Assembly (NCBI GenBank): GCA_012512505.1
Contig: JAAZEB010000123.1
Location: 1-35,535 of the forward strand
Direction of reading: 5' to 3'
Source of the DNA: Armatimonadota bacterium
Lineage (GTDB): Bacteria > Armatimonadota > JAAZEB01
DNA: 35,535 bases
Part shown: positions 1 to 16,766 of the stretch, one piece after another
Numbering within the stretch: position 1 is the first letter of the stretch
How the letters are laid out: each line of letters begins with the position of its first letter
Program-made: the position numbers and the translations under genes
The notes under the pieces: generated by a model
Database searches by the model: none
The model's input: only the letters and a program-made list of their open reading frames with translations
Told to the model about the DNA's origin: nothing

Positions 1-625
1 CAGGCATGCACGCCCTCCGACTGCTTGTAGGCACACGGTTTCAGGTTCTATTTCACTCCCCTTCCGGGGTGCTTTTCACCTTTCCCTCACGGTACTGTGT
101 GCGCTATCGGTCGCCAGGAGTATTCAGCCTTACGAGGTGGTACTCGCAGATTCACACAGGGGCTCCCGTCCCCCGTGCTACTTGGGGTGAAGAGAACACA
201 GCGCGGCCCGGCTTTCGCTTACGGGGCTGTCACCCGCTGTGGCGCCCCTTCCCAGGGGACTTCAGCTAACCGGCGCCGACACCCCACGGCAGAGCCGTAG
301 CTCTGCCTCTCTTTCCCCGCTACCCCCGGGCCTGTGTCTCCACACGGAGACCAGCACCCGGGTTTGGGCTGTTCCCTGTTCGCTCGCCGCTACTAGGGGA
401 ATCGCGGTTGCTTTCTTCTCCTCGGGTTACTAGGATGTTTCCGTTCGCCCGGTTCCCTCGGGAGGCGAACCTCCCGTAAGACGGCATGACCCGTCTTGGG
501 TTTCCCCATTCGGACACCCCCGGATAACAGCCTGCCACCGGCTCCCCGGGGACTTTCGCGGGGTGGCCGCGTCCTTCATCGGCTCTGGCGCCCAGGCATC
601 CACCATACGCCCTTGGTGAACATGA
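1..625 (-). rRNA. rrl: 23S ribosomal RNA, 5' part (cut by window start)
   Basis: Read on the minus strand, this is the first ~625 nt of 23S rRNA (domain I). Recognisable blocks are GGTGGATGCC near the 5' end, CCGAATGGGGAAACCC, GTAGCGGCGAGCGAA, and the run ACCGTGAGGGAAAGGTGAAA. The molecule continues beyond position 1. It is somewhat divergent: the usual GCGAACCAGTACCGTGAGG reads GCGCACACAGTACCG here, and the helix normally GGGAG/CTCCC reads GCGAG/CTCGT, which keeps pairing. The 5' end at about 625 is estimated from alignment to known 23S starts and may be off by 10 nt. It lies downstream of the 16S in the same transcription direction, separated by a ~145-bp spacer. Confidence 0.95.
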
Positions 626-641
626 TTCGGCAGAAACTCTC

Positions 642-660
642 TTCGGTTGTCAAGGTGCGG
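642..660 (-). promoter_or_regulatory. boxA-like antitermination site in 16S-23S spacer
   Basis: On the minus strand this reads CCGCACCTTGACAACCGAA, close to bacterial rRNA boxA (TGCTCTTTGACAACTGAA type). An almost identical copy lies in the 16S leader at 2582-2600. BoxA in both leader and spacer is the known arrangement for Nus-factor antitermination. No tRNA gene is seen in the 145-bp spacer. Confidence 0.6.
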
Positions 661-725
661 CACCCCCCGGCGAGAGCGGGCACGCTGGCCCGTTCCCACC
701 TGGAACACGGCGGGCAACGCCCGCG

Positions 726-757
726 CTGAACAGATGCGTGCCGGCGAAACCGTCAGG
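726..757 (-). other. 16S processing stem, 3' strand
   Basis: This segment is complementary to 2554-2585 in the 16S leader over about 32 nt with only about three imperfections: the outer part CTGAACAGATG is shared exactly, then CGTGCCG and CGAAAC. In the transcript the two strands would form a long stem enclosing the whole 16S, the standard substrate for RNase III-type pre-rRNA processing. The spacer lies between this element and the 23S start. Confidence 0.8.
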
Positions 758-770
758 CCCTCCGTCCTCT

Positions 771-2525
771 TGGGATCAAGGATCACTGCCGCACCTACCG
801 GTACGGCCTCTTTGCCCCACCTTCAACCGCCTCGTCAGAGCCCTGCCTGGGCGCCGGTGCTCCGGGAGAACCCCCGGATCCTGGCGACTTCAGCCGGGCC
901 CACCTGGGCGGAAGTGGTTGGCAATGTGAACGGTGCCTGGGAACGTATTCACCGCGACATCGCTGATCCGCGGTTACTAGCGACTTCAGGCTTCATGCAG
1001 TCGGGTTGCAGACTGCAATCCGAACCGGGGCCCGTTTTTTGGGGTTACCTCCGCCTCGCGGCTTCGGCACTCTTTGTACGGGCCACTGTAGCACGTGTGC
1101 AGCCCAGAGCATAAGGGGCGTACCGACTTGACCTCATCCCCACCTTCCTCCAATGGCCCGGATATCCCACAGCCAGGACCACGGCGGTTCCTGGTGAGTG
1201 CCCGGCGCACCTCCACAGCCTTTCGGCGGCGGAGATACCCGCTGGCAACACCAGGCAGGGGTTTCGCCCGTTTTGGGAGTGAACCCAACGCCTCACGGCA
1301 CGGGCTGACGACAGCCACTCGCCACCTGTGCCCCGGCCGGCACCCGAAGGTGCCGGAGCCCCGGTTTCCCGGGGGGTCCGAGACATGTCAAGCCCTGGTA
1401 AGGTTCTCGGGAACCTAGTCCGATTAAGCCACGTGCTCGGCCGCTTGTGCAGGCACTCGCCAATTCCCTTGATTTTCAGCCTTGCGGCCGTACTCCTCAG
1501 GCGGGACACTCTGCGCGCGAGCTGCGTCCTGGAAAGGTAAGCCGACAACCCAGCACTCTGCTTCTGCAGAGTACCCTAACGGGCTGCCGGGGCCTCCCGG
1601 GACTAGTGTCCATCTTTTACGGCCAGGACTACCCGGGTACCTAATCCGGTTTGCTCCCCTGGCTTTCGCGCAGTCAGCGTCAGGGCCAGTCCAGAGAGCT
1701 GCCTTCGCCTTCGGTGTTCCTCCCGGTATCAACGCATTTCACCGCTCCTCCGGGAATTCCGCTCTCCTCTGCTGCCCTCTAGTGGCGTGGTATCGCCGGC
1801 ACGGCCCTCCGGTTAAGCCGGAAGCTTTGACCGGCGACGGACACCACCGCCTATGCGCCCTTTGCGCCCAATGAGAGTGGACAACGCTTGCACCCTACGT
1901 CTCAACGCGGCTGCTGGCACGTAGTTGGCCGGTGCTTTCTCGGGCGGTACCGTCAGAGCCGGCGCCAAGGCCGGCCGTTCTTCCCGCTCGAACAAGGGTT
2001 TACAACGGGCCGCAGCCCGCCTTCTTCCCCCACGCGGCGTCGCTGCGTCAGGGTTGCCCCCATTGCGCAAGATTCCCCACTGCTGCCACCTACGCCGCCC
2101 GCGTCGCGTCTGACCGGTTCCAGTCCCCCGTCAGACGGGACAGAGTCGGCTTCGGTGCCGGGCCCGTGTCTCAGTGCCCGTCTGGCTGGCCGTCCTCCCA
2201 GACCAGCTACCCGTCGTCGGCTTGGTGGGCCGTTACCCCGCCAACTACCTGATAGGACGCGGGCCCCTCCGGAAGCGAGCCTCAGCCCTTTGGGCCACCC
2301 CCATGCGAGAGTGGACCATACGGCGGATTACCCCTCCTTTCGGAAGGCTGTCCGCCTCTTCCGGGTAGGTTGCCCACGCGTTACTCAGCCGTTCGCCGCT
2401 GACAAGCCGCAGGCATCGTCGGGTAACACCTTACCCAAGAACACCTCGCGGCCTGTTCGCTCGACTTGCATGTGTCAGGCACGCCGCCAGCGTTCGTCCG
2501 GGGCCGGGATCATGCCCATCATGAT
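771..2525 (-). rRNA. rrs: 16S ribosomal RNA, highly divergent and enlarged
   Basis: Minus-strand 16S, recognised by GACGAACGCTGGCGGCGTGC, GTGCCAGCAGCCGCG, GGTGAAATGCG, GGAGGAAGGTGGGGATGA and GGTGAATACGTTCCC. It is about 1.75 kb, roughly 200 nt longer than usual. Extra length is visible in h13 (a ~60-nt insert near 2092-2160), in the loop before GGAGGAAGG near 1155-1190, and in h44. Many near-universal bases differ (E. coli numbering): G530 is U, A532 is G, A792 is G, C1399 and C1400 are U, 1498-1500 read GGG, and the h45 tetraloop GGAA is GGTA. The 3' tail reads GTGATCCTTGATCC with no CCTCC. Many helix changes are compensated on the partner strand. Ends are estimated from alignment and the flanking processing stem. 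It may be a functional variant or a specialised copy; neutral pseudogene decay fits less well. See findings. Confidence 0.93.
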
Positions 2526-2553: not shown

Positions 2554-2585
2554 CCTGAAGTTTCGGCGGCACGTCATCTGTTCAG
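2554..2585 (-). other. 16S processing stem, 5' strand
   Basis: Partner of 726-757. In the RNA it begins CTGAACAGATG and ends about 28 nt before the estimated 16S 5' end. Together the two strands would close a stem of about 30 bp around the 16S. Such a long complement across 1.8 kb is not expected by chance and argues that the operon is still maintained. Confidence 0.8.
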
Positions 2586-2600
2586 TTGTCAAGGTGCGCT
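2582..2600 (-). promoter_or_regulatory. boxA-like antitermination site in rRNA leader
   Basis: Minus strand GCGCACCTTGACAACTGA, matching rRNA boxA and repeated in the spacer at 642-660. It sits directly upstream of the 5' processing strand, where a leader boxA is expected. Confidence 0.6.
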
Positions 2601-2614
2601 CCGTGTTCATCCGG

Positions 2615-2642
2615 AGTCTACCATCCCCTGCCAGGGAATAAA
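2615..2642 (-). promoter_or_regulatory. possible rRNA promoter
   Basis: On the minus strand TAGACT (2615-2620) could be a -10 box with TTTATT (2637-2642) 16 bp upstream. The -35 match is poor, so this is a weak candidate. Its position just upstream of the leader boxA is right for an rRNA promoter. Confidence 0.25.
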
Positions 2643-2687
2643 CGCCGAACATTTCTTTGCGCACCATTGGCGCGGCCGGGTGAATCC

Positions 2688-4655: not shown

Positions 4656-6269
4656 ATGGAACAGACGCTGACAAGTCAGGTGGCCCGAGAGGTTCAACGG
4701 CGGCGCACCTTCGCCATCATCTCTCACCCAGACGCGGGAAAGACAACGCTCACCGAGAAGCTGTTGCTCTACGCCGGCGCGGTGCGCCTCGCCGGCTCCG
4801 TGCGCACCCGCAAGGGGCAGCGCCACGCCACCTCCGATTGGATGGAGATGGAGCAGGAGCGCGGCATCTCGATCACTTCGGCGGTGATGCAGTTCGACTA
4901 CCGCGACTACCACATCAACCTGCTCGACACTCCCGGCCACCAGGACTTCAGTGAGGACACCTACCGCGTGCTCACCGCCGTTGACAACGCGGTGATGGTG
5001 ATCGACAGCGCCAACGGCGTGGAGTCGCAAACGCGCAAGCTGTTCGAGGTCTGCCAGCGCCGCCGCACCCCGGTCTTTACCTTGATCAACAAGGTAGACC
5101 GCCCCGGCAAGGAGCCGCTGGAGTTGCTGGGCGAGATTGAGGACGTGCTCGGCATCGCCACCGTGCCGATGAACTGGCCGGTGCGCTCGATGCTGGGCGC
5201 CGTGGTGGGCATCTACGACTTGCAGCAGCGCCAGGTTCACCTCTTCGAGCGCGCGGAGCACGGCAGCCAGCGCGCCCCGGTGCAGGTCACCGATCTGCAC
5301 GACCCGGTGCTGGCCGAGCTGCTGGAACCCCAGGCGCTGGCGCAGCTTCGCGACGAAGTGGAGCTGTTGGAGGCGGCGGGCGACGCGCTAGACCGCGACC
5401 GCGTCCAGAGCGGCGAGCTCACCCCGGTCTACTTCGCCAGCGCCCTGCTCAACTTCGGCGTGCAGCTTTTCCTCGACAGCTTCCTCGACCTGGCGGTCGG
5501 GCCGGTGGCCCGCAAGGCGCAGCAGGGCCTGGTGCGCCCCGAGCACCCCCACTTCAGCGGCTTCGTCTTCAAGCTGCAGGCAAACATGGATCGGCGCCAC
5601 CGCGACCGACTGGCGTTCGTGCGCGTTTGCTCCGGGCGCTTCGAGCGCGACATGGTCGTCAACCACGTCCGCACCGGCAAGAAGCTGCGCCTGACACGCT
5701 CGCTAAAGCTGTTTGCCCAGGAACGCGAATCGGTGGATGAGGCCTACCCCGGCGACATCGTCGGGTTGATCAACCCGGGGATGCTCGCCATCGGCGATAC
5801 GCTGTGCAGCAGCGAGCGGGTGGAGTTCGATGAGATCCCCCGCTTCCCGCCGGAGCACTTTGCCACCCTCTCTCTCCCGGAGACGGACCAGCGCAAGGCG
5901 CTGGCCAAGGGGCTGGATCAGCTCTGCGAGGAGGGCCTGGTGCAGGTCTTCTACCCCGTCGGCGACGTGATGCGCCAGCCGATCCTGGCCGCCGTCGGTC
6001 CCCTGCAGTTCGACGTGCTGACCGACCGCCTGGAGAACGAGTACAACGTGCAGGCGCGCGTGGAGAGGCTGCCGTACGAGCACGCTCGCTGGCTGGAAGG
6101 CACCGCCGCGGCGATCGCCGCGATGCGCTGTCCGCCCGGCTGCGCGCGCGTGCTGGACCCTGAAGAGCGGCCGGTGCTCCTGCTCCCTGACGATTGGTCG
6201 GTGCGCTACACCACGGAGAAGAACCCGGAGGTCACCCTCCACCGCATGCCGCCCAAGGCGAACGACTAA
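4656..6269 (+). CDS. prfC: Peptide chain release factor 3 (GTPase)
   Basis: 537 aa, full length for RF3, the translational GTPase that removes RF1/RF2 from the ribosome after peptide release. Visible motifs are G1 SHPDAGKTT (residues 23-31), the switch I segment RGISITS, G3 DTPGH (~92), and G4 NKVD (~145), followed by EF-Tu-like domain II and the RF3 C-terminal domain. The ATG at 4656 has no Shine-Dalgarno directly before it. It follows a possible in-frame mini-ORF and an extended -10 promoter. Its stop codon overlaps the convergent nikR stop by 4 bp. Confidence 0.96.
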   Translation: MEQTLTSQVAREVQRRRTFAIISHPDAGKTTLTEKLLLYAGAVRLAGSVRTRKGQRHATSDWMEMEQERGISITSAVMQFDYRDYHINLLDTPGHQDFSEDTYRVLTAVDNAVMVIDSANGVESQTRKLFEVCQRRRTPVFTLINKVDRPGKEPLELLGEIEDVLGIATVPMNWPVRSMLGAVVGIYDLQQRQVHLFERAEHGSQRAPVQVTDLHDPVLAELLEPQALAQLRDEVELLEAAGDALDRDRVQSGELTPVYFASALLNFGVQLFLDSFLDLAVGPVARKAQQGLVRPEHPHFSGFVFKLQANMDRRHRDRLAFVRVCSGRFERDMVVNHVRTGKKLRLTRSLKLFAQERESVDEAYPGDIVGLINPGMLAIGDTLCSSERVEFDEIPRFPPEHFATLSLPETDQRKALAKGLDQLCEEGLVQVFYPVGDVMRQPILAAVGPLQFDVLTDRLENEYNVQARVERLPYEHARWLEGTAAAIAAMRCPPGCARVLDPEERPVLLLPDDWSVRYTTEKNPEVTLHRMPPKAND

Positions 6270-11248: not shown

Positions 11249-12256
11249 CTAGAGGTGGACGGTCTCCCGCGAGGCCCCGGCCTTCAGCACGGCGAGCGCC
11301 AGTTCGGTGGCGTTGCGGCCGTCTTCGCCGGTGACGCAGGGGCGCCGGCCTTCGCGCACGCACGTCACGAAGTGATCCATCTGCGCGTCGAACCACTCCT
11401 GACCGCCGGTGTGCTCGTACTCAATCGGGTGTTCCTTGCCGTCCCCGTCGATGTAGTAGAAGTAGTTGAGCTTGCTCCCCTCCGCCGGGGCGCCGGGGAA
11501 GCGGAGCGCGCCCTTCGGGCCGATGACGTCCTGCATCGACTGGCCGCTGCACGCCGTTCCCGGCAGGCCCCACGACCAGGTCCGCACGATCTCGTCACCC
11601 GACTTGAACTTGACGATCGCCGTGCCGGTGTCGAGGGCGGTGGTCGTTTCCTTCATGCGCGAGATGCTGGCGACCACCTTCTCCGGCTCGCCGAAGGTGA
11701 AGCGGGCGAAGTCCCAGTCGTGGACGCAGCCATCGATGAAGGGGCCGCCGCCCTTCTCGGCGTCGAGGAACCAGGGGCTGGCCGGCCCGGAGCTGGCGTT
11801 GGCGGTGCGCCACACCACCGGCCGGCCCAGGCGTCCCTCGCGGATGATGTCGCGCAGCTTCAGCCACTCGTTGCAGAAGCGGCGCACAAAGGCGACCATG
11901 AACAGCGAGCCGGCCTTCTCGCAGGCGGCGATCATCTGGTCGGCCTCCTCCAGCGAGAGGGAGATCGGCTTCTCGCAGAGGACGTGCTTGCCGGCCGCGG
12001 CCGCGGCCAACACCCCTTCCGCGTGCCGGAAGGTGGGCGTGCAGACGACCACCGCCTGCACCTCGGGCATCGCCACCAGCTCTGCCGGGTCGGTGACCCA
12101 CTTGGCAACCTGGTAGCGTTCGGCCTGGGCCTTGGCCGCCTCAGGGTTAACGTCGGCAACGCAGACGACACGGGCGTCGTCGCGCTTAGAGAGGGCGGTC
12201 AGGTGAACGTTACTGATCCCCCCACACCCGATGATGCCGAAACCGATGCTGCTCAT
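11249..12256 (-). CDS. Gfo/Idh/MocA family oxidoreductase
   Basis: 335 aa from the ATG at 12256, which has AAAGGA 6 nt upstream. Residues ~4-125 form a Rossmann domain with the nucleotide loop GIIGCGGISNVH; the family motif EKP is present (VLCEKPISLSLEEAD). The C-terminal half is the usual substrate-binding alpha/beta domain. It has no Tat signal, unlike the two relatives at 23259 and 24579, so it should act in the cytoplasm on a sugar or inositol-like substrate with NAD(P). The 216-bp gap on its 5' side, up to the heparinase-like gene, shows nothing recognisable. Confidence 0.93.
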   Translation of the reverse strand: MSSIGFGIIGCGGISNVHLTALSKRDDARVVCVADVNPEAAKAQAERYQVAKWVTDPAELVAMPEVQAVVVCTPTFRHAEGVLAAAAAGKHVLCEKPISLSLEEADQMIAACEKAGSLFMVAFVRRFCNEWLKLRDIIREGRLGRPVVWRTANASSGPASPWFLDAEKGGGPFIDGCVHDWDFARFTFGEPEKVVASISRMKETTTALDTGTAIVKFKSGDEIVRTWSWGLPGTACSGQSMQDVIGPKGALRFPGAPAEGSKLNYFYYIDGDGKEHPIEYEHTGGQEWFDAQMDHFVTCVREGRRPCVTGEDGRNATELALAVLKAGASRETVHL

Positions 12257-12472
12257 CAACGATCCTTTCCGCCTGGTCAAGTTGCCGCACGGGCGCGGCC
12301 CAGGCTCCCGTCTATCTTGAGGCCTGCGGGCCCCCGGCTGTCTCGTTCCCACCCGGATGCCGGCTCAGTGCCCCCGGGGAGCGCCTTCTGCGTCGCTCTC
12401 TCGACACAGATTCGCCTTGCCGCCCGCTTCTCCTGTGCTGGCTGCCGGGCCGCCCCCGTTCCCCCGGCGTTC

Positions 12473-15400
12473 TCAGCGCGCCTCCGCCGCTTTCGCCATC
12501 CCCGTGGCCGGGATGCGCCCATCGCCGCTCTTCACCCAGGCGCCATCGCCGGCGCGCCACTCGCGCACGCCGGTCAACTGCACCGCGGTGCTCGACACCA
12601 CGCGCCAGACACCTCCTTTGCCCCGCGCCAGCCAGGCCGCCGTCGGGATCGTGAACGTGTCTCCCTCCTGGATGTCGTAGTAGCGCACCACGTCGCCCGG
12701 CTGGAAGCCATTGGTGCTCTCCACGCGCAGCGTCATCGGCGTTCCATACTCCACCGCCGTCAGGCGGGTGCACACCCCGGCGTCCGACTCCAGCCGTTTG
12801 CCGTCGAAGAAGTGGTTGTTGCCACCACCCAACACCGAGCGCGCGTAGTCGTGCGGGATCTCGGTGGTCAGCGTGTGGGCATCGACGCAATCGGCGATGC
12901 GCCCCTGCCCCAGCAAGGTGGATTGCGCCCCCAGGTGAAGGCGGCTGCCGGTGCCGTCTCTCTCGATGCGCTCAATCCGGTAGGCGGTGTTGCGCGAGTA
13001 GTCGGGATGGGCGAAGTAGACTCCTTCTCCCTCCAGGCCGGTGGTAGGCAGAAGGGCGTCTACCGTCACCAGGTTCCGCTCACGGTCGATGGCGGTAATC
13101 CGGCCGCTGTGCGCCGCCGGGTCCAGCGTCACGCGCAGGCTGCCCACCTGCAGCGCGCGGCACCCTTGCAGCGCCAGCGCCACCACCTCCTTGCCCCGCA
13201 GTGCCACGTAGGCAATGCCGCCCGCCCAGGTCACCCTGCCGGCCGGGGTGTCGAAGTGGTTGCTCAGGCCCGGCACCCCCTCCACCGCGCCGGTGGTTGG
13301 CACCTGGCTGGCGAAGTACTCATCGCGGTCGCCCCGCCGAACGTGAATGGCCAGCGGCGCGTAGCCCGGCACCACGTTCCCGGCCACCGGCAGCCGCTCC
13401 ACCCGCGCCAGGATCGGCCGGGGCTCCCGCGGCGCGGCGGCCCGCGACACCGGCACCAGCCCCAGGGAGACGATCCCGATCAGCGTGTTGGGCGAGGCCT
13501 CGGTGATGGTAACCCGCACGCGGTGGTCCCCGGCGCTCAGGCGCCGCCGTCCGAAGCGCGCCACCACCGGCCCCTCCAGGGCCGCCGCGGCCGCCGCGTA
13601 CGGCTTGCCAACCGCCTTCCCATCCACCGAGAGCTGCACCGTGCCGTAGGAGGGGTTGCGGTAGAACTCCGCCTGCACCTCGTACTCGCCGGCGCGGGGC
13701 ACCGGCAGGCGGCACTCCACGAAGTCGCCCGCCCGCCGGCCGCGCAGCAGGAATGCCCCGAGGTGGTGCATCGCCACCAACTCGCCCCGGCTGGCAGCCA
13801 CCCGGCGCAGAAGTTGGCTGTAGCCCAGCGTGCCCGGTGGCAGCGGCACGGCGTACGGCTCCAGCACGGTGGCGAAGCTGCTCTGCAGCCTTGGCCCCGC
13901 GCGGCGCAGCAGCAGGTAGCTTGCCTTCCGGTTGCCGGGGTAGAGGCCCGGGGCCTTGGCGACGATCGCCTCCGCCGGCCCCTCTGGCAGCACGTGGGCC
14001 CGCAAGTGCGCCTGGTTCGGCCCGCCCAGCGTCCAGTCCACCGACCAGGGCGCCGAGACCGGCGCGCGGCGCACGCCGTAAAAGAAGCCGTAGCCGTTCC
14101 CCGGGGGCGGGTTCCAATAGGGGCGGTTCGGGAAGCCGATCAGGTCGCCGTCACTGCCCTGCCGCTCGCCCCAGGCGTGCTCCGGGCCGGCGAGCGAGCC
14201 GGTCTCCTCGGGTCCCAGCGCCACGCCGGCCACCGTAAACTCCCGGCCCTGCGAGCCAAGCACGTAGTCGTGCTGCTTGCCCCCGGCCACCCGGAAGAGG
14301 TCCACCACGTATTGGTCGCGCCCCTCGCCGATGAGGGCCACCGTGCGGCGGTACTGCGTCACCTGCTGCGCGGCGTAGCTGAGCGGCGAGTCGGCTTCCA
14401 CCACCTTGATGCCCGGCAGCCGCACGAACAGGTAGAGGCTGCCGCCCGACCCGCCGGCCTGGGGGGCCTCGTTCACTGTCACCAGCGCGTGGCTGGCAGT
14501 CTGCCGCGCCCAGCCCACCTGGGTGTGGGTGCTCCCCAGGCCGTAGCCGATCTCGTAGGTGGTCTGCCACCCCTTGGCATAGTAGATCAGGCCCAGGTCG
14601 TCCAGATGGCCGTGATTGAGCGAGGGTCCATAGCGCAGCAGCACCCCCTGGGCCTCGCGGTCGGAGCCATCGCGCAAGAGGGCCAGCCCCTTTTGTCCCA
14701 GGAACCACGAGCCGAACACCTTGCGGTGGAGGTCTGCCGGTAGCGCCGCCGGGCCGCGGCTGGCGGGCAGTGGCTCGGCGTGGTAGAGAAGCCAGGTGCG
14801 GCGGGGCGAGCTGAGCCGGGCGCGCTCGAGGTCGCCACCGGCGAGGTAGGCCAGGATCTGCCCGAAACGCTCTTTCTCGGCGCCGCTGCAGCCGGCGTAG
14901 AGGTGTTCGGCGAACTGGTAATCGCGCGCCGAGTACTTCTCGTCGCTGGCGGCGAGGTAGCGGTGGTCCGGCCCCTCGTCGCCGAAATTGGGGTGGTGCC
15001 CGGCCAGATCCATCGTCAGGTCGGGCAGGCTGTAGAAGGCGCGGAAGCGGGCGTCGGCGTAGAGATCCACGCCGTTCGGGTAGCGCTCGTCTCGCCAGTG
15101 CTTCAGCGGCTCGGCGAAGGTGAGGTACAACTCGCGGCAGTGGAGAGCATACCCCAGCGAGGTCTCGTAGTAGCGGCCGTCGCGGTCGCAGTTGTTCACC
15201 AGCATGGCCCGGATGGAGTAGGGGCCGTCTACGGCATGGTGAACGTAGGTGGGGATGTTCAGCAGGGCGCCGACCGCCAGGGCGCCGCGCAGGTAGTCGG
15301 CGTGGCCATTGTGCAGCGCCCCGGAGAAGGTGTTGGCGTAGCAGTAGTAGCCACCGTCCTGCATCAGGTTCACGTCGATGTTCTCGCGGCGGGTCATCCC

Positions 15401-16705
15401 CTCGCGAGAGGTACCGCGGGCGTCCTGGGTGCCCACCACGCGCTGCTGCGGCGTGGGACTGGGCGGGAAGCTCCGCTCCAGGCGGGGCCGCAGCGACGGC
15501 TGCTCCACCGCCGGGCTGGCGTAGATCAGGTCATACGCCTCCACCAGGGGCGTGAGGGTGCGCGCCACCTGGTACCACGGCCGGGCCAGGCGCCCGCTGG
15601 GAGGGCTACTCGGGTAGTCCCACGAGCCGGCGGTCGACTCGGCGTAGATGCTCGCCAGGGCATCCAGCAGGAAGGCGGCGCGCTCGGCGTAGCGCTCGTC
15701 GCCGGTGAGGGCGTAGGCGTGTGCCAGGCTGCTGATGCCGCTCTGCCACTGCTCGGTCACCCACGCGTTCCAGGAGCCGACGAAGTAGTGAACGCGGCCG
15801 TCCTTGCCCCGGTAGCCGGTGCCGTCGTCCGGGTGTGCCGCATCCGGCAGCACGTGCCCTTTGGCGCACTGCACCGTTCCGGGCCGGTCCCAGGCACAGT
15901 TGGCAGAGCCCCAGGTGCCCCAGCTAGCGCCACAGATCGGGCAGCCGGTGAAGCCGTAGGCATAGCAGGCGCCCGGCGGCGGCAGGAAGCGCAGCCACTC
16001 CTCCGCGGGGCGTTTCAGCCACGGCGCTGCCTCGCGCAGAATCGTCTCCCGCGCCGCCCGGCCCCAGGCGGTTTGCTCCGCGTTGCGGCGGGCCCGCGCC
16101 ACGTGGGCCGGCGTCAGGTAGACGGTCGGGTGTGGCCGCCCCCCCAGCACCGAGATCGCCTCCCGGGGCTGCGGCGCCGGCGGCGGGGTGGGCAGCCGAA
16201 CCTCCCGCGCGCGATCCAGATAGACGCCCATCTCCTCAATCCCCACGTAATGCCGCGGCTGATGCACCGCCAACACGGTGAGCCGCACCCAGGTAACCTG
16301 GTGTATCTCCGCGAAGCGCACGAGGTGGGTTCCCTGCTCCTCCGGGCCAACGGTCACGCTGTGCGTCGTGCCGTCGGAGAGCTCCACCACGAAGCGCTGC
16401 CAGGCGGCGTATAGCTCGGGCATCTTGGCGTAGATCGCCACGGTGACCGTGTCCACCTCCCGCGGCTCGGGCCACTCCAGGCGGACCCACTGCGGCAGCT
16501 TGGCGTCGGCGCTGGCCCACCAGCTCTGTGGCCGACCATCGGCGAGGCGGCGCACGCCGTACTTGCCGTCCTCTGGTGAGGCCTGCGACGAGGCGGAGAG
16601 ACGGGCCTCAGCGGCCAGGTTTTTGGGCACCGCCGCGCCGGGCACCCGCGCCAGGCAGAGGGCGCCCGCGGCACTGACCAGGTACAGAAGCAGGCGGGTG
16701 TTCAT
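12473..16705 (-). CDS. Exported heparinase II/III- or alginate lyase-like polysaccharide lyase
   Basis: 1410 aa from the ATG at 16705 (AAGGA upstream), which puts a signal peptide first (MNTRLLLYLVSAAGALCLA). Residues ~40-165 look like an F5/8-type-C (discoidin) sugar-binding domain. Residues ~215-660 are the alpha/alpha-toroid type of lyase domain; an early Cys cluster (CPICGASW...CAKGH) resembles a zinc-binding insert. At ~690-705 the sequence NHGHLDDLGLIYYAKG matches the conserved start of the heparinase II/III beta-sandwich, which carries catalytic His. Around 1050-1130 a further carbohydrate-binding-type sandwich follows (FVECRLPVPRAGEYEVQAEF). Predicted to cleave an acidic polysaccharide outside the cytoplasm; the substrate is not known. 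It starts divergently from the sulfotransferase gene. Confidence 0.85.
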   Translation of the reverse strand: MNTRLLLYLVSAAGALCLARVPGAAVPKNLAAEARLSASSQASPEDGKYGVRRLADGRPQSWWASADAKLPQWVRLEWPEPREVDTVTVAIYAKMPELYAAWQRFVVELSDGTTHSVTVGPEEQGTHLVRFAEIHQVTWVRLTVLAVHQPRHYVGIEEMGVYLDRAREVRLPTPPPAPQPREAISVLGGRPHPTVYLTPAHVARARRNAEQTAWGRAARETILREAAPWLKRPAEEWLRFLPPPGACYAYGFTGCPICGASWGTWGSANCAWDRPGTVQCAKGHVLPDAAHPDDGTGYRGKDGRVHYFVGSWNAWVTEQWQSGISSLAHAYALTGDERYAERAAFLLDALASIYAESTAGSWDYPSSPPSGRLARPWYQVARTLTPLVEAYDLIYASPAVEQPSLRPRLERSFPPSPTPQQRVVGTQDARGTSREGMTRRENIDVNLMQDGGYYCYANTFSGALHNGHADYLRGALAVGALLNIPTYVHHAVDGPYSIRAMLVNNCDRDGRYYETSLGYALHCRELYLTFAEPLKHWRDERYPNGVDLYADARFRAFYSLPDLTMDLAGHHPNFGDEGPDHRYLAASDEKYSARDYQFAEHLYAGCSGAEKERFGQILAYLAGGDLERARLSSPRRTWLLYHAEPLPASRGPAALPADLHRKVFGSWFLGQKGLALLRDGSDREAQGVLLRYGPSLNHGHLDDLGLIYYAKGWQTTYEIGYGLGSTHTQVGWARQTASHALVTVNEAPQAGGSGGSLYLFVRLPGIKVVEADSPLSYAAQQVTQYRRTVALIGEGRDQYVVDLFRVAGGKQHDYVLGSQGREFTVAGVALGPEETGSLAGPEHAWGERQGSDGDLIGFPNRPYWNPPPGNGYGFFYGVRRAPVSAPWSVDWTLGGPNQAHLRAHVLPEGPAEAIVAKAPGLYPGNRKASYLLLRRAGPRLQSSFATVLEPYAVPLPPGTLGYSQLLRRVAASRGELVAMHHLGAFLLRGRRAGDFVECRLPVPRAGEYEVQAEFYRNPSYGTVQLSVDGKAVGKPYAAAAAALEGPVVARFGRRRLSAGDHRVRVTITEASPNTLIGIVSLGLVPVSRAAAPREPRPILARVERLPVAGNVVPGYAPLAIHVRRGDRDEYFASQVPTTGAVEGVPGLSNHFDTPAGRVTWAGGIAYVALRGKEVVALALQGCRALQVGSLRVTLDPAAHSGRITAIDRERNLVTVDALLPTTGLEGEGVYFAHPDYSRNTAYRIERIERDGTGSRLHLGAQSTLLGQGRIADCVDAHTLTTEIPHDYARSVLGGGNNHFFDGKRLESDAGVCTRLTAVEYGTPMTLRVESTNGFQPGDVVRYYDIQEGDTFTIPTAAWLARGKGGVWRVVSSTAVQLTGVREWRAGDGAWVKSGDGRIPATGMAKAAEAR

Positions 16706-16736
16706 GCTACGTCGGTTCCTTCGGCCGCGGCCGCGG

Positions 16737-16766
16737 TTGACCATGGCCGCGCGCCCATGTTATACT
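16737..16766 (+). promoter_or_regulatory. Sigma70-type promoter giving a near-leaderless mRNA
   Basis: TTGACC (16737-16742), an 18-bp spacer, and TATACT (16761-16766). Transcription should start near 16773, only ~6 nt before the ATG at 16779, leaving no room for a Shine-Dalgarno. On the other strand the same place reads AGTATAAC, so the -10 may also serve the divergent lyase gene, but no -35 is seen in that direction. Confidence 0.6.

Follow-up and report, generated by a model that had tools for sequence, protein, structure and literature searches.

What kind of ribosome, if any, is made from an rRNA operon whose near-universal bases have been replaced? The question is raised by the stretch of DNA analyzed here (the window; 35,535 nt), which is the whole of contig C18 from G000, a metagenome-assembled genome (MAG) that is 97% complete. 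All of the genomes compared with it are also MAGs, of which G000, G001, and G002 make up family f1 and G055, G106, and G246 are included in family f5. The minus strand of the window carries the only 16S rRNA gene found in G000, together with the 5' part of a 23S rRNA gene, and both belong to a divergent rRNA type that we label D. The 16S gene is a full-length match to RF00177 above the gathering score, at 1101 bits versus about 1400 to 1570 bits for other complete Armatimonadota 16S genes. The 3' part of the G000 D 23S gene lies on contig C302 (positions 1 to 1563; match, 1359 to 2925), and the gene groups with the other D 23S genes, which score 2181 to 2224 bits with RF02541 (G246, G106, G001, and G055). 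No tRNA gene was found in the window, and no 5S gene was found in G000. The features of the operon are collected in Table 1.

Table 1. Features of the D-type rRNA operon in the window
Feature	Positions	Strand	Detail
D-type 23S rRNA gene, 5' part	1..627	-	RF02541, 421 bits; cut at 3' end by contig end
16S-23S spacer, 147 nt	628..774	-	tRNA genes: 0
23S processing stem, 5' arm	631..651	-	3' arm on C302 just past 23S
Second leader motif CTTGACAA, upstream of 23S	647..654	-	
16S processing stem, 3' arm	726..750	-	Complementary to 5' arm
D-type 16S rRNA gene, 1751 nt	775..2525	-	RF00177, 1101 bits; model positions 1-1533
16S 3' tail without CCUCC anti-Shine-Dalgarno	775..788	-	Covariance alignment
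h45 loop GGUA, not GGAA (A1518 = U)	796..799	-	Covariance alignment
Rewritten 1490-1503 strand, decoding center	811..826	-	GAAGGUGGGGCAAA
Rewritten 1384-1410 strand, decoding center	911..940	-	UUCACAUUGCCAACC vs GUACACACCGCCCGUC
Expanded h14, 73 nt vs 14 (60-nt insert)	2085..2160	-	Internal loop
16S processing stem, 5' arm	2560..2585	-	Complementary to 726-750
rrn leader motif CTTGACAA, upstream of 16S	2586..2593	-	Also before canonical G246 16S
Promoter-like GTTTA, 50 nt before leader motif	2639..2643	-	GTTTAT-N14-TGGTAG, 2618-2643

An earlier note on this DNA had described a 16S gene at positions 771 to 2525 that is altered at near-universal sites, with compensating changes in the pairing partners. 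The RF00177 alignment of the minus-strand gene bears out the description and the upper boundary, although the lower boundary is 775. In helix 28, pairs 932-1385 and 928-1389 have both become U-A and 925-1391 has become G-C; at the base of h44, 1405-1496 is A-U and 1406-1495 is C-G; 1399-1504 is U-A; and 10-24, 12-22, and 20-915 have become G-C, C-G, and C-G, respectively. The substitutions G530U, A792G, and C1400U and the GGG at 1498 to 1500 were also seen as described, as were the retention of A1408, A1492, and A1493 and the uncompensated A-G mismatches at 1404-1497 and 13-21. The CGGGC/GCCCG helix that had been offered as an example from h12 is h13 (E. coli positions 316 to 337). Beyond these points, the analysis added the GGUA loop of h45, the loss of the anti-Shine-Dalgarno sequence (absent from D 16S), the D type of the adjacent 23S gene, the canonical operon in relatives, and the h14 insert, which is one of the expansions of D 16S and is present in all D. 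The internal loop of this insert is GAA/[AC]GUA in G000, G001, and G246 and AAA/AGUA in G055, and we take it to resemble the bulged-G (loop E) motif.

Universal bases of the decoding center, A-loop, peptidyl transferase center, and helix 69 are preferentially replaced in D, several of them identically in all D. The reference set for 16S consisted of the 648 columns that are invariant among 20 canonical Armatimonadota and E. coli; full-length D genes are altered at 66 to 85 of the 648 columns, compared with 0 to 23 in leave-one-out canonical controls. Per D sequence, canonical-invariant 16S sites are changed at frequencies of 40% in the 1384 to 1408 region, 30% in h1 and h2, and 18 to 25% in h34, and, in most regions of the 16S body, at frequencies given as 1 to 7% and as 4 to 8%. 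The corresponding values for invariant 23S sites are 38% in the A-loop, 24 to 28% in peptidyl transferase segments, and 27% in H68 to H71; domains I and IV, at 8%, and the sarcin-ricin loop, at 7%, are less affected, and this loop and A2602 are kept in D. The states found in all D include C1054A, A915G, A1394U, U1406C, U1495G, and A1500G in 16S and A2503U, U2506C, A2497G, and G2447A in 23S. The invariant 23S segment AUAACAGG is rewritten in D, and the 2447 to 2455 segment is GGAAUACAGGGC or GGAAAACAGGGC in every D where the canonical sequence is GGAUAACAGGCU. Over 2446 to 2457, the canonical GGAUAACAGGCU has become GGAAUACAGGGCU or GGAAAACAGGGCC, a change that can be read as A2451C, C2452A, and A2453G or as the loss of one A and the gain of one G. 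Because such states, including most of the 2447 to 2455 segment, are fixed in all D, the altered center itself appears to be selected. Other states are restricted to part of the group: G530U and U2585A to f1 (G000 and G001), A1492C to G055, and A1492U, A1493U, and A1408G to G246 and G106, and G2553 is A in f5 D and U in f1 D. The tRNA-contacting bases G2553, the 2250 to 2253 P-loop, U2506, C1054, and A1492/A1493 or G530 are replaced in a manner that varies among D. As a set, the bases that are otherwise universal in the decoding and peptidyl transferase centers are not retained, and the functional centers are not intact in the way that those of specialized operons are. A role as an antibiotic decoy was considered and is thought unlikely, as some or all D carry changes at the very sites usually targeted by drugs (1408, 2058 to 2062, and 2503).

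The operon has the pre-rRNA processing stems and leader elements of an rRNA transcription unit. Processing arms flank the 16S and 23S genes in the D operons examined, the 23S 5' arm of G055 being incomplete, and the stems differ in sequence between D genomes yet stay complementary, as expected for RNase III. The leader motif before D 16S is CTTGACAA, but TTTGATAA in G055. Upstream of it, GTTTA occurs at distances of 50, 49, 48, and 45 nt from the leader in four D operons, and none of 5000 shuffles shared any 5-mer at similar distances. GGG[TC]A follows GTTTA at a sigma-B-like spacing in G001 and G246, with a weaker match in G000 and G055. The consensus of sigma-B-type promoters is GTTTAA-N12..15-GGGTAT or similar, and the canonical G246 promoter is TTGACA-N17-TATATT. 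In G106, 16 of the 28 cases of GTTTA-N13..15-GGG[TC]A lie between open reading frames, versus 10% expected, and a SigB/SigF/SigG-family sigma factor (TIGR02980, 290 bits; cutoff, 234) is encoded immediately downstream of genes recognized by eye as rsbV- and rsbW-like. In the search, made outside f1, the sigma factor was found in G106 only. Control of the predicted D promoter by a sigma-B-type factor is a good lead.

Several other features of the window and of the G106 promoter region were recorded. A long perfect hairpin at 2682 to 2722 (GGACCAGGGTACCCG ... CGGGTACCCTGGTCC) lies just upstream of the D promoter and is perhaps the terminator of the sulfatase gene. A gene for peptide chain release factor 3 (4656 to 6269, plus strand) is located two genes from the D operon, and a GFO/IDH/MocA oxidoreductase is encoded beside a 1423-aa heparinase-II/III-like protein (11249 to 16744, minus strand), a pair suggestive of polysaccharide use. 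In G106, the copy of the D promoter is at C25:6912 (L122), which shows that the D operon of that genome is split between C25 and C17.

The likely behavior of the D product can be judged from E. coli. G530U, A1492C, A2451G, and U2585A inactivate E. coli ribosomes, and G530U, A1492C, and A2451G trigger no particle degradation (PMC4289901); chemical edits of A1492 and A1493 are tolerated in vitro (PMC5270523). Because the changes in D are concentrated in the decoding and peptidyl transferase centers and include states that are inactivating in E. coli, it is doubtful that the D product is a translating ribosome. The reading that we rank first, and hold to be somewhat favored, is that D is a second, paralogous rRNA operon for a conditionally made, translation-silent ribosome-like particle. 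Next in rank is a radically specialized translating ribosome that would be selective, would have altered centers, and would work without Shine-Dalgarno recognition, like the Vibrio vulnificus rrnI ribosome but in a far more extreme form. We regard this second reading as unlikely: the two subunits covary as a set and are both under purifying selection, some altered center states are fixed in all D, the sarcin-ricin loop and A2602 are kept, and the operon has its own promoter element, but the replacements at tRNA-contacting bases vary from one D to another, three of the D states (G530U, A1492C, and U2585A) inactivate E. coli ribosomes (PMC4289901), and the anti-Shine-Dalgarno sequence has been lost while the genes use Shine-Dalgarno sites.

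D is of single origin and old, being present in two families and in both subunits. It was found in five Armatimonadota MAGs, namely, G000 and G001 in f1 and G055, G106, and G246 in f5; the D 16S gene of G001 is located midway along a 44-kb contig. In a 25-sequence tree in which four D 16S genes were used, D forms one clade (100/100) that is split into f1 and f5, and the 23S tree agrees. Grouping of the f5 D with the f5 canonical 16S genes was rejected by the AU test (p about 1e-8), a test limited by long branches. A search for the 16S signature in 84,980 species genomes returned only two Armatimonadota and one chance match on a proteobacterial contig, and pattern matches with 2 mismatches in G126, G133, G250, and G255 were accompanied by no rRNA on the stretches examined. 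A viral origin was rejected, as two D signatures were without a match in 2.9 million viral contigs. No neighboring gene is common to the D loci of different genera, so that synteny pointed to no partner protein. It is improbable that the operon entered by transfer from an unknown lineage that had a strange ribosome and was subsequently retained, an explanation of its origin and not of its function; the long D stem branch (0.33 per site in 16S) and the different genomic places of the D loci in f1 and f5 would agree with such a transfer, but D is placed within the Armatimonadota in the 16S tree (90/87, with a long-branch caveat) and splits by family.

Purifying selection, accompanied by compensatory change, acts on both D rRNAs. 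Pairs were taken from the Rfam consensus structure, and the partner-shuffle null was obtained by redealing partner bases among pairs of the same type. Between G000 D and canonical G246, there are 68 doubly compensated pairs (null mean, 16; maximum, 26) and 35 broken pairs (null mean, 120; minimum, 103), which places the compensation proposed in the earlier note above chance. The D genes of G000 and G001 differ by 20 doubly compensated pairs (null, 1.9; maximum, 7) and 9 broken pairs (null, 35; minimum, 28). Those of G246 and G106 have diverged by 1.1% in 16S, 1.0% in 23S, and 8.5% in the spacer, and the 30.5 kb that these genomes share has diverged by 13.7% at fourfold-degenerate sites and 2.6% at codon positions 1 and 2. 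Between G000 and G001 D, 15% of unpaired sites and 9% of stem sites are changed, whereas canonical comparisons show the reverse; D preserves its helices but not all of its exposed functional bases. Neither the neutral rate nor the loss of pairing of an rRNA pseudogene was found. A decaying pseudogene operon, to which the broken pairs and the faster change of unpaired sites could be attributed, is very improbable, given that compensation is far above the null, that divergence between G246 and G106 is 1.0 to 1.1% versus 13.7%, that the processing stems remain complementary despite their altered sequence, and that D has been retained across two families.

Even less probable is a binning or assembly artifact in which the D contigs come from another organism: all sources are MAGs, but the D contigs carry chromosomal genes (those of G246 and G106 appear chromosomal from their gene content, judged by eye, and are syntenic over 30 kb), the D phylogeny follows the two families in five independent MAGs, and the RNase Y encoded in the window is 84% identical to that of G001, 81% to that of G002, and 60 to 64% to those of family f5, so that the window contig belongs to this lineage.

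G246 and G106 have a canonical operon in addition to D, and G055 and G001 have, besides D, the 3' end of a canonical-type 23S gene linked to 5S. In G246, the canonical 23S gene (2836 bits), tRNAs, and 5S are on the 348-kb contig C2, the canonical 16S gene is split between C27 and C2, and the D operon is on C18 (16S, 1051 bits; 23S, 2224 bits); D and canonical rRNAs within this genome are about 28% different in both subunits. In G106, C18 ends in a canonical 23S gene joined to 5S (409 nt, 99.8% identical to canonical G246). In G055, C229 begins with 344 nt of 23S joined to 5S, with 92% identity to canonical and 76% to its own D, and in G001, the end of C160 carries 97 nt of a further 23S gene next to 5S, with 88% identity to canonical G246. 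In G006, only a canonical 23S end was found. The canonical 16S gene of G246 breaks at a universally conserved stretch (68 nt, in the 880 to 950 region), and this stretch presumably explains why short-read assemblies lose the canonical rRNA and keep D. G000 probably has a canonical operon as well, because KsgA is intact and Shine-Dalgarno sites are used, neither of which D 16S can serve. KsgA is intact in both G000 and G001, where D h45 lacks its usual GGAA loop, and Shine-Dalgarno motifs occur in 34% of 58 f1 genes versus 9% of internal controls (p 0.001) and in 36% versus 5% in G106 (1428 genes). In the 2.36 Mb of G106, 22 ribosomal proteins are encoded in single copy, and no second ribosomal protein set was found in the 74% of that genome covered; the proteins would therefore be shared between D and canonical particles. 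That D is the only ribosome of the lineage, having replaced the normal one, is scarcely credible: the G000, G001, G055, and G106 assemblies hold only D-type 16S, but G246 and G106 contain canonical pieces, G055 and G001 contain a further 23S end next to 5S, the break in the conserved stretch would let assemblies lose the canonical gene and keep D, and Shine-Dalgarno use and an intact KsgA need a canonical 16S. The selected, divergent ribosome type of the earlier note thus holds in part. Selection and the lack of decay stand, on the grounds of compensation, low divergence, and recurrence in independent assemblies; if the organism's own ribosome was meant, the reading is not supported, as relatives have a canonical operon alongside the D operon that is the single one counted in G000 and the genes of G000 use Shine-Dalgarno sites.

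Other observations were made during the survey of rRNA and translation genes. G002 has a weak 5S match (C105:481-591, L102; 31.6 bits, below the cutoff) with no recognizable 23S upstream. G145 has two unlike 16S genes (C10:99193-101596 and C12:137299-138845; 1426 and 1544 bits), of which that on C10 extends over 2404 nt and probably contains a large insert. In G106, a 694-aa EF-G paralogue is encoded in the spc operon between rplE and rpsN (C7:7018-9102, L109).

In the reading that we prefer, that of a second operon for a translation-silent particle, D would be transcribed from its own promoter, probably of the sigma-B type, under stress or slow growth. The pre-rRNA, in which most of the regions contacted by ribosomal proteins are kept, would be processed and would fold in the manner of rRNA, and it would be assembled together with the ordinary set of ribosomal proteins and the shared 5S. 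The result would be a ribosome-like particle that does not translate canonical mRNA, a step predicted by analogy with the E. coli mutants, and canonical ribosomes would meanwhile do the bulk of translation. The particle might, as a guess, be a silent stand-in that stores, or acts as a decoy for, ribosomal proteins, factors of assembly or hibernation, or GTPases that bind 23S. Several D states are common to both families, which suggests a positive, and not merely silent, role of the altered centers. There is a fair chance that D specifies a stress-induced ribosome paralogue with a new function, its centers having been reshaped for some task that is not canonical protein synthesis.

Divergent rRNA operons have been described in other bacteria. 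The I-ribosomes specified by V. vulnificus rrnI translate chosen mRNAs (PMC10697612); like D, rrnI is a divergent genomic rRNA operon beside canonical ones and is linked to stress, a link that for D is proposed only, whereas D has universal catalytic bases replaced, differs by about 28% in both rRNAs, and extends over two families. In Scytonema hyalinum, the divergent operon differs by 7.3 to 9.0% in 16S and 8.7% in 23S, compared with about 28% in D, and resembles D in that 16S and 23S have both diverged, secondary structure is kept, and the operon is conserved among strains; rewritten active centers are not reported in the abstract (PMC5658200). In a survey of 184 species, heterogeneous rrn operons, including those of Thermoanaerobacter tengcongensis, had 23S differences of up to 4.04% (PMC2672173); these are likewise paralogous rRNA genes differing within one genome, but their structure and function are kept. 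Across the literature cited, intragenomic 16S divergence reaches up to 9%, versus about 28% in D. The E. coli G530U, A1492C, A2451G, and U2585A mutants share sites, and partly the same bases, with D (PMC4289901); they are point mutants made in the laboratory, whereas the D changes are natural, multiple, conserved, and located in a separate operon. In the open-licence literature, nothing was found that describes a conserved pair of rRNAs whose catalytic bases are replaced.

The finding also carries a warning for genome surveys, as MAG assembly keeps D and loses the canonical genes and so mimics a bizarre ribosome. The standard primers 27F, 515F, and 1492R, to which D has 3 to 7, 2 to 3, and 6 to 8 mismatches, respectively, would miss it. 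The decoding and peptidyl transferase centers are among the least changeable sequences known. In D, nature provides an experiment that distinguishes rRNA bases with a role in assembly from those with a role in catalysis. If the reading given here is true, either the ribosome can be duplicated and put to another use or translation tolerates more than the mutants suggest.
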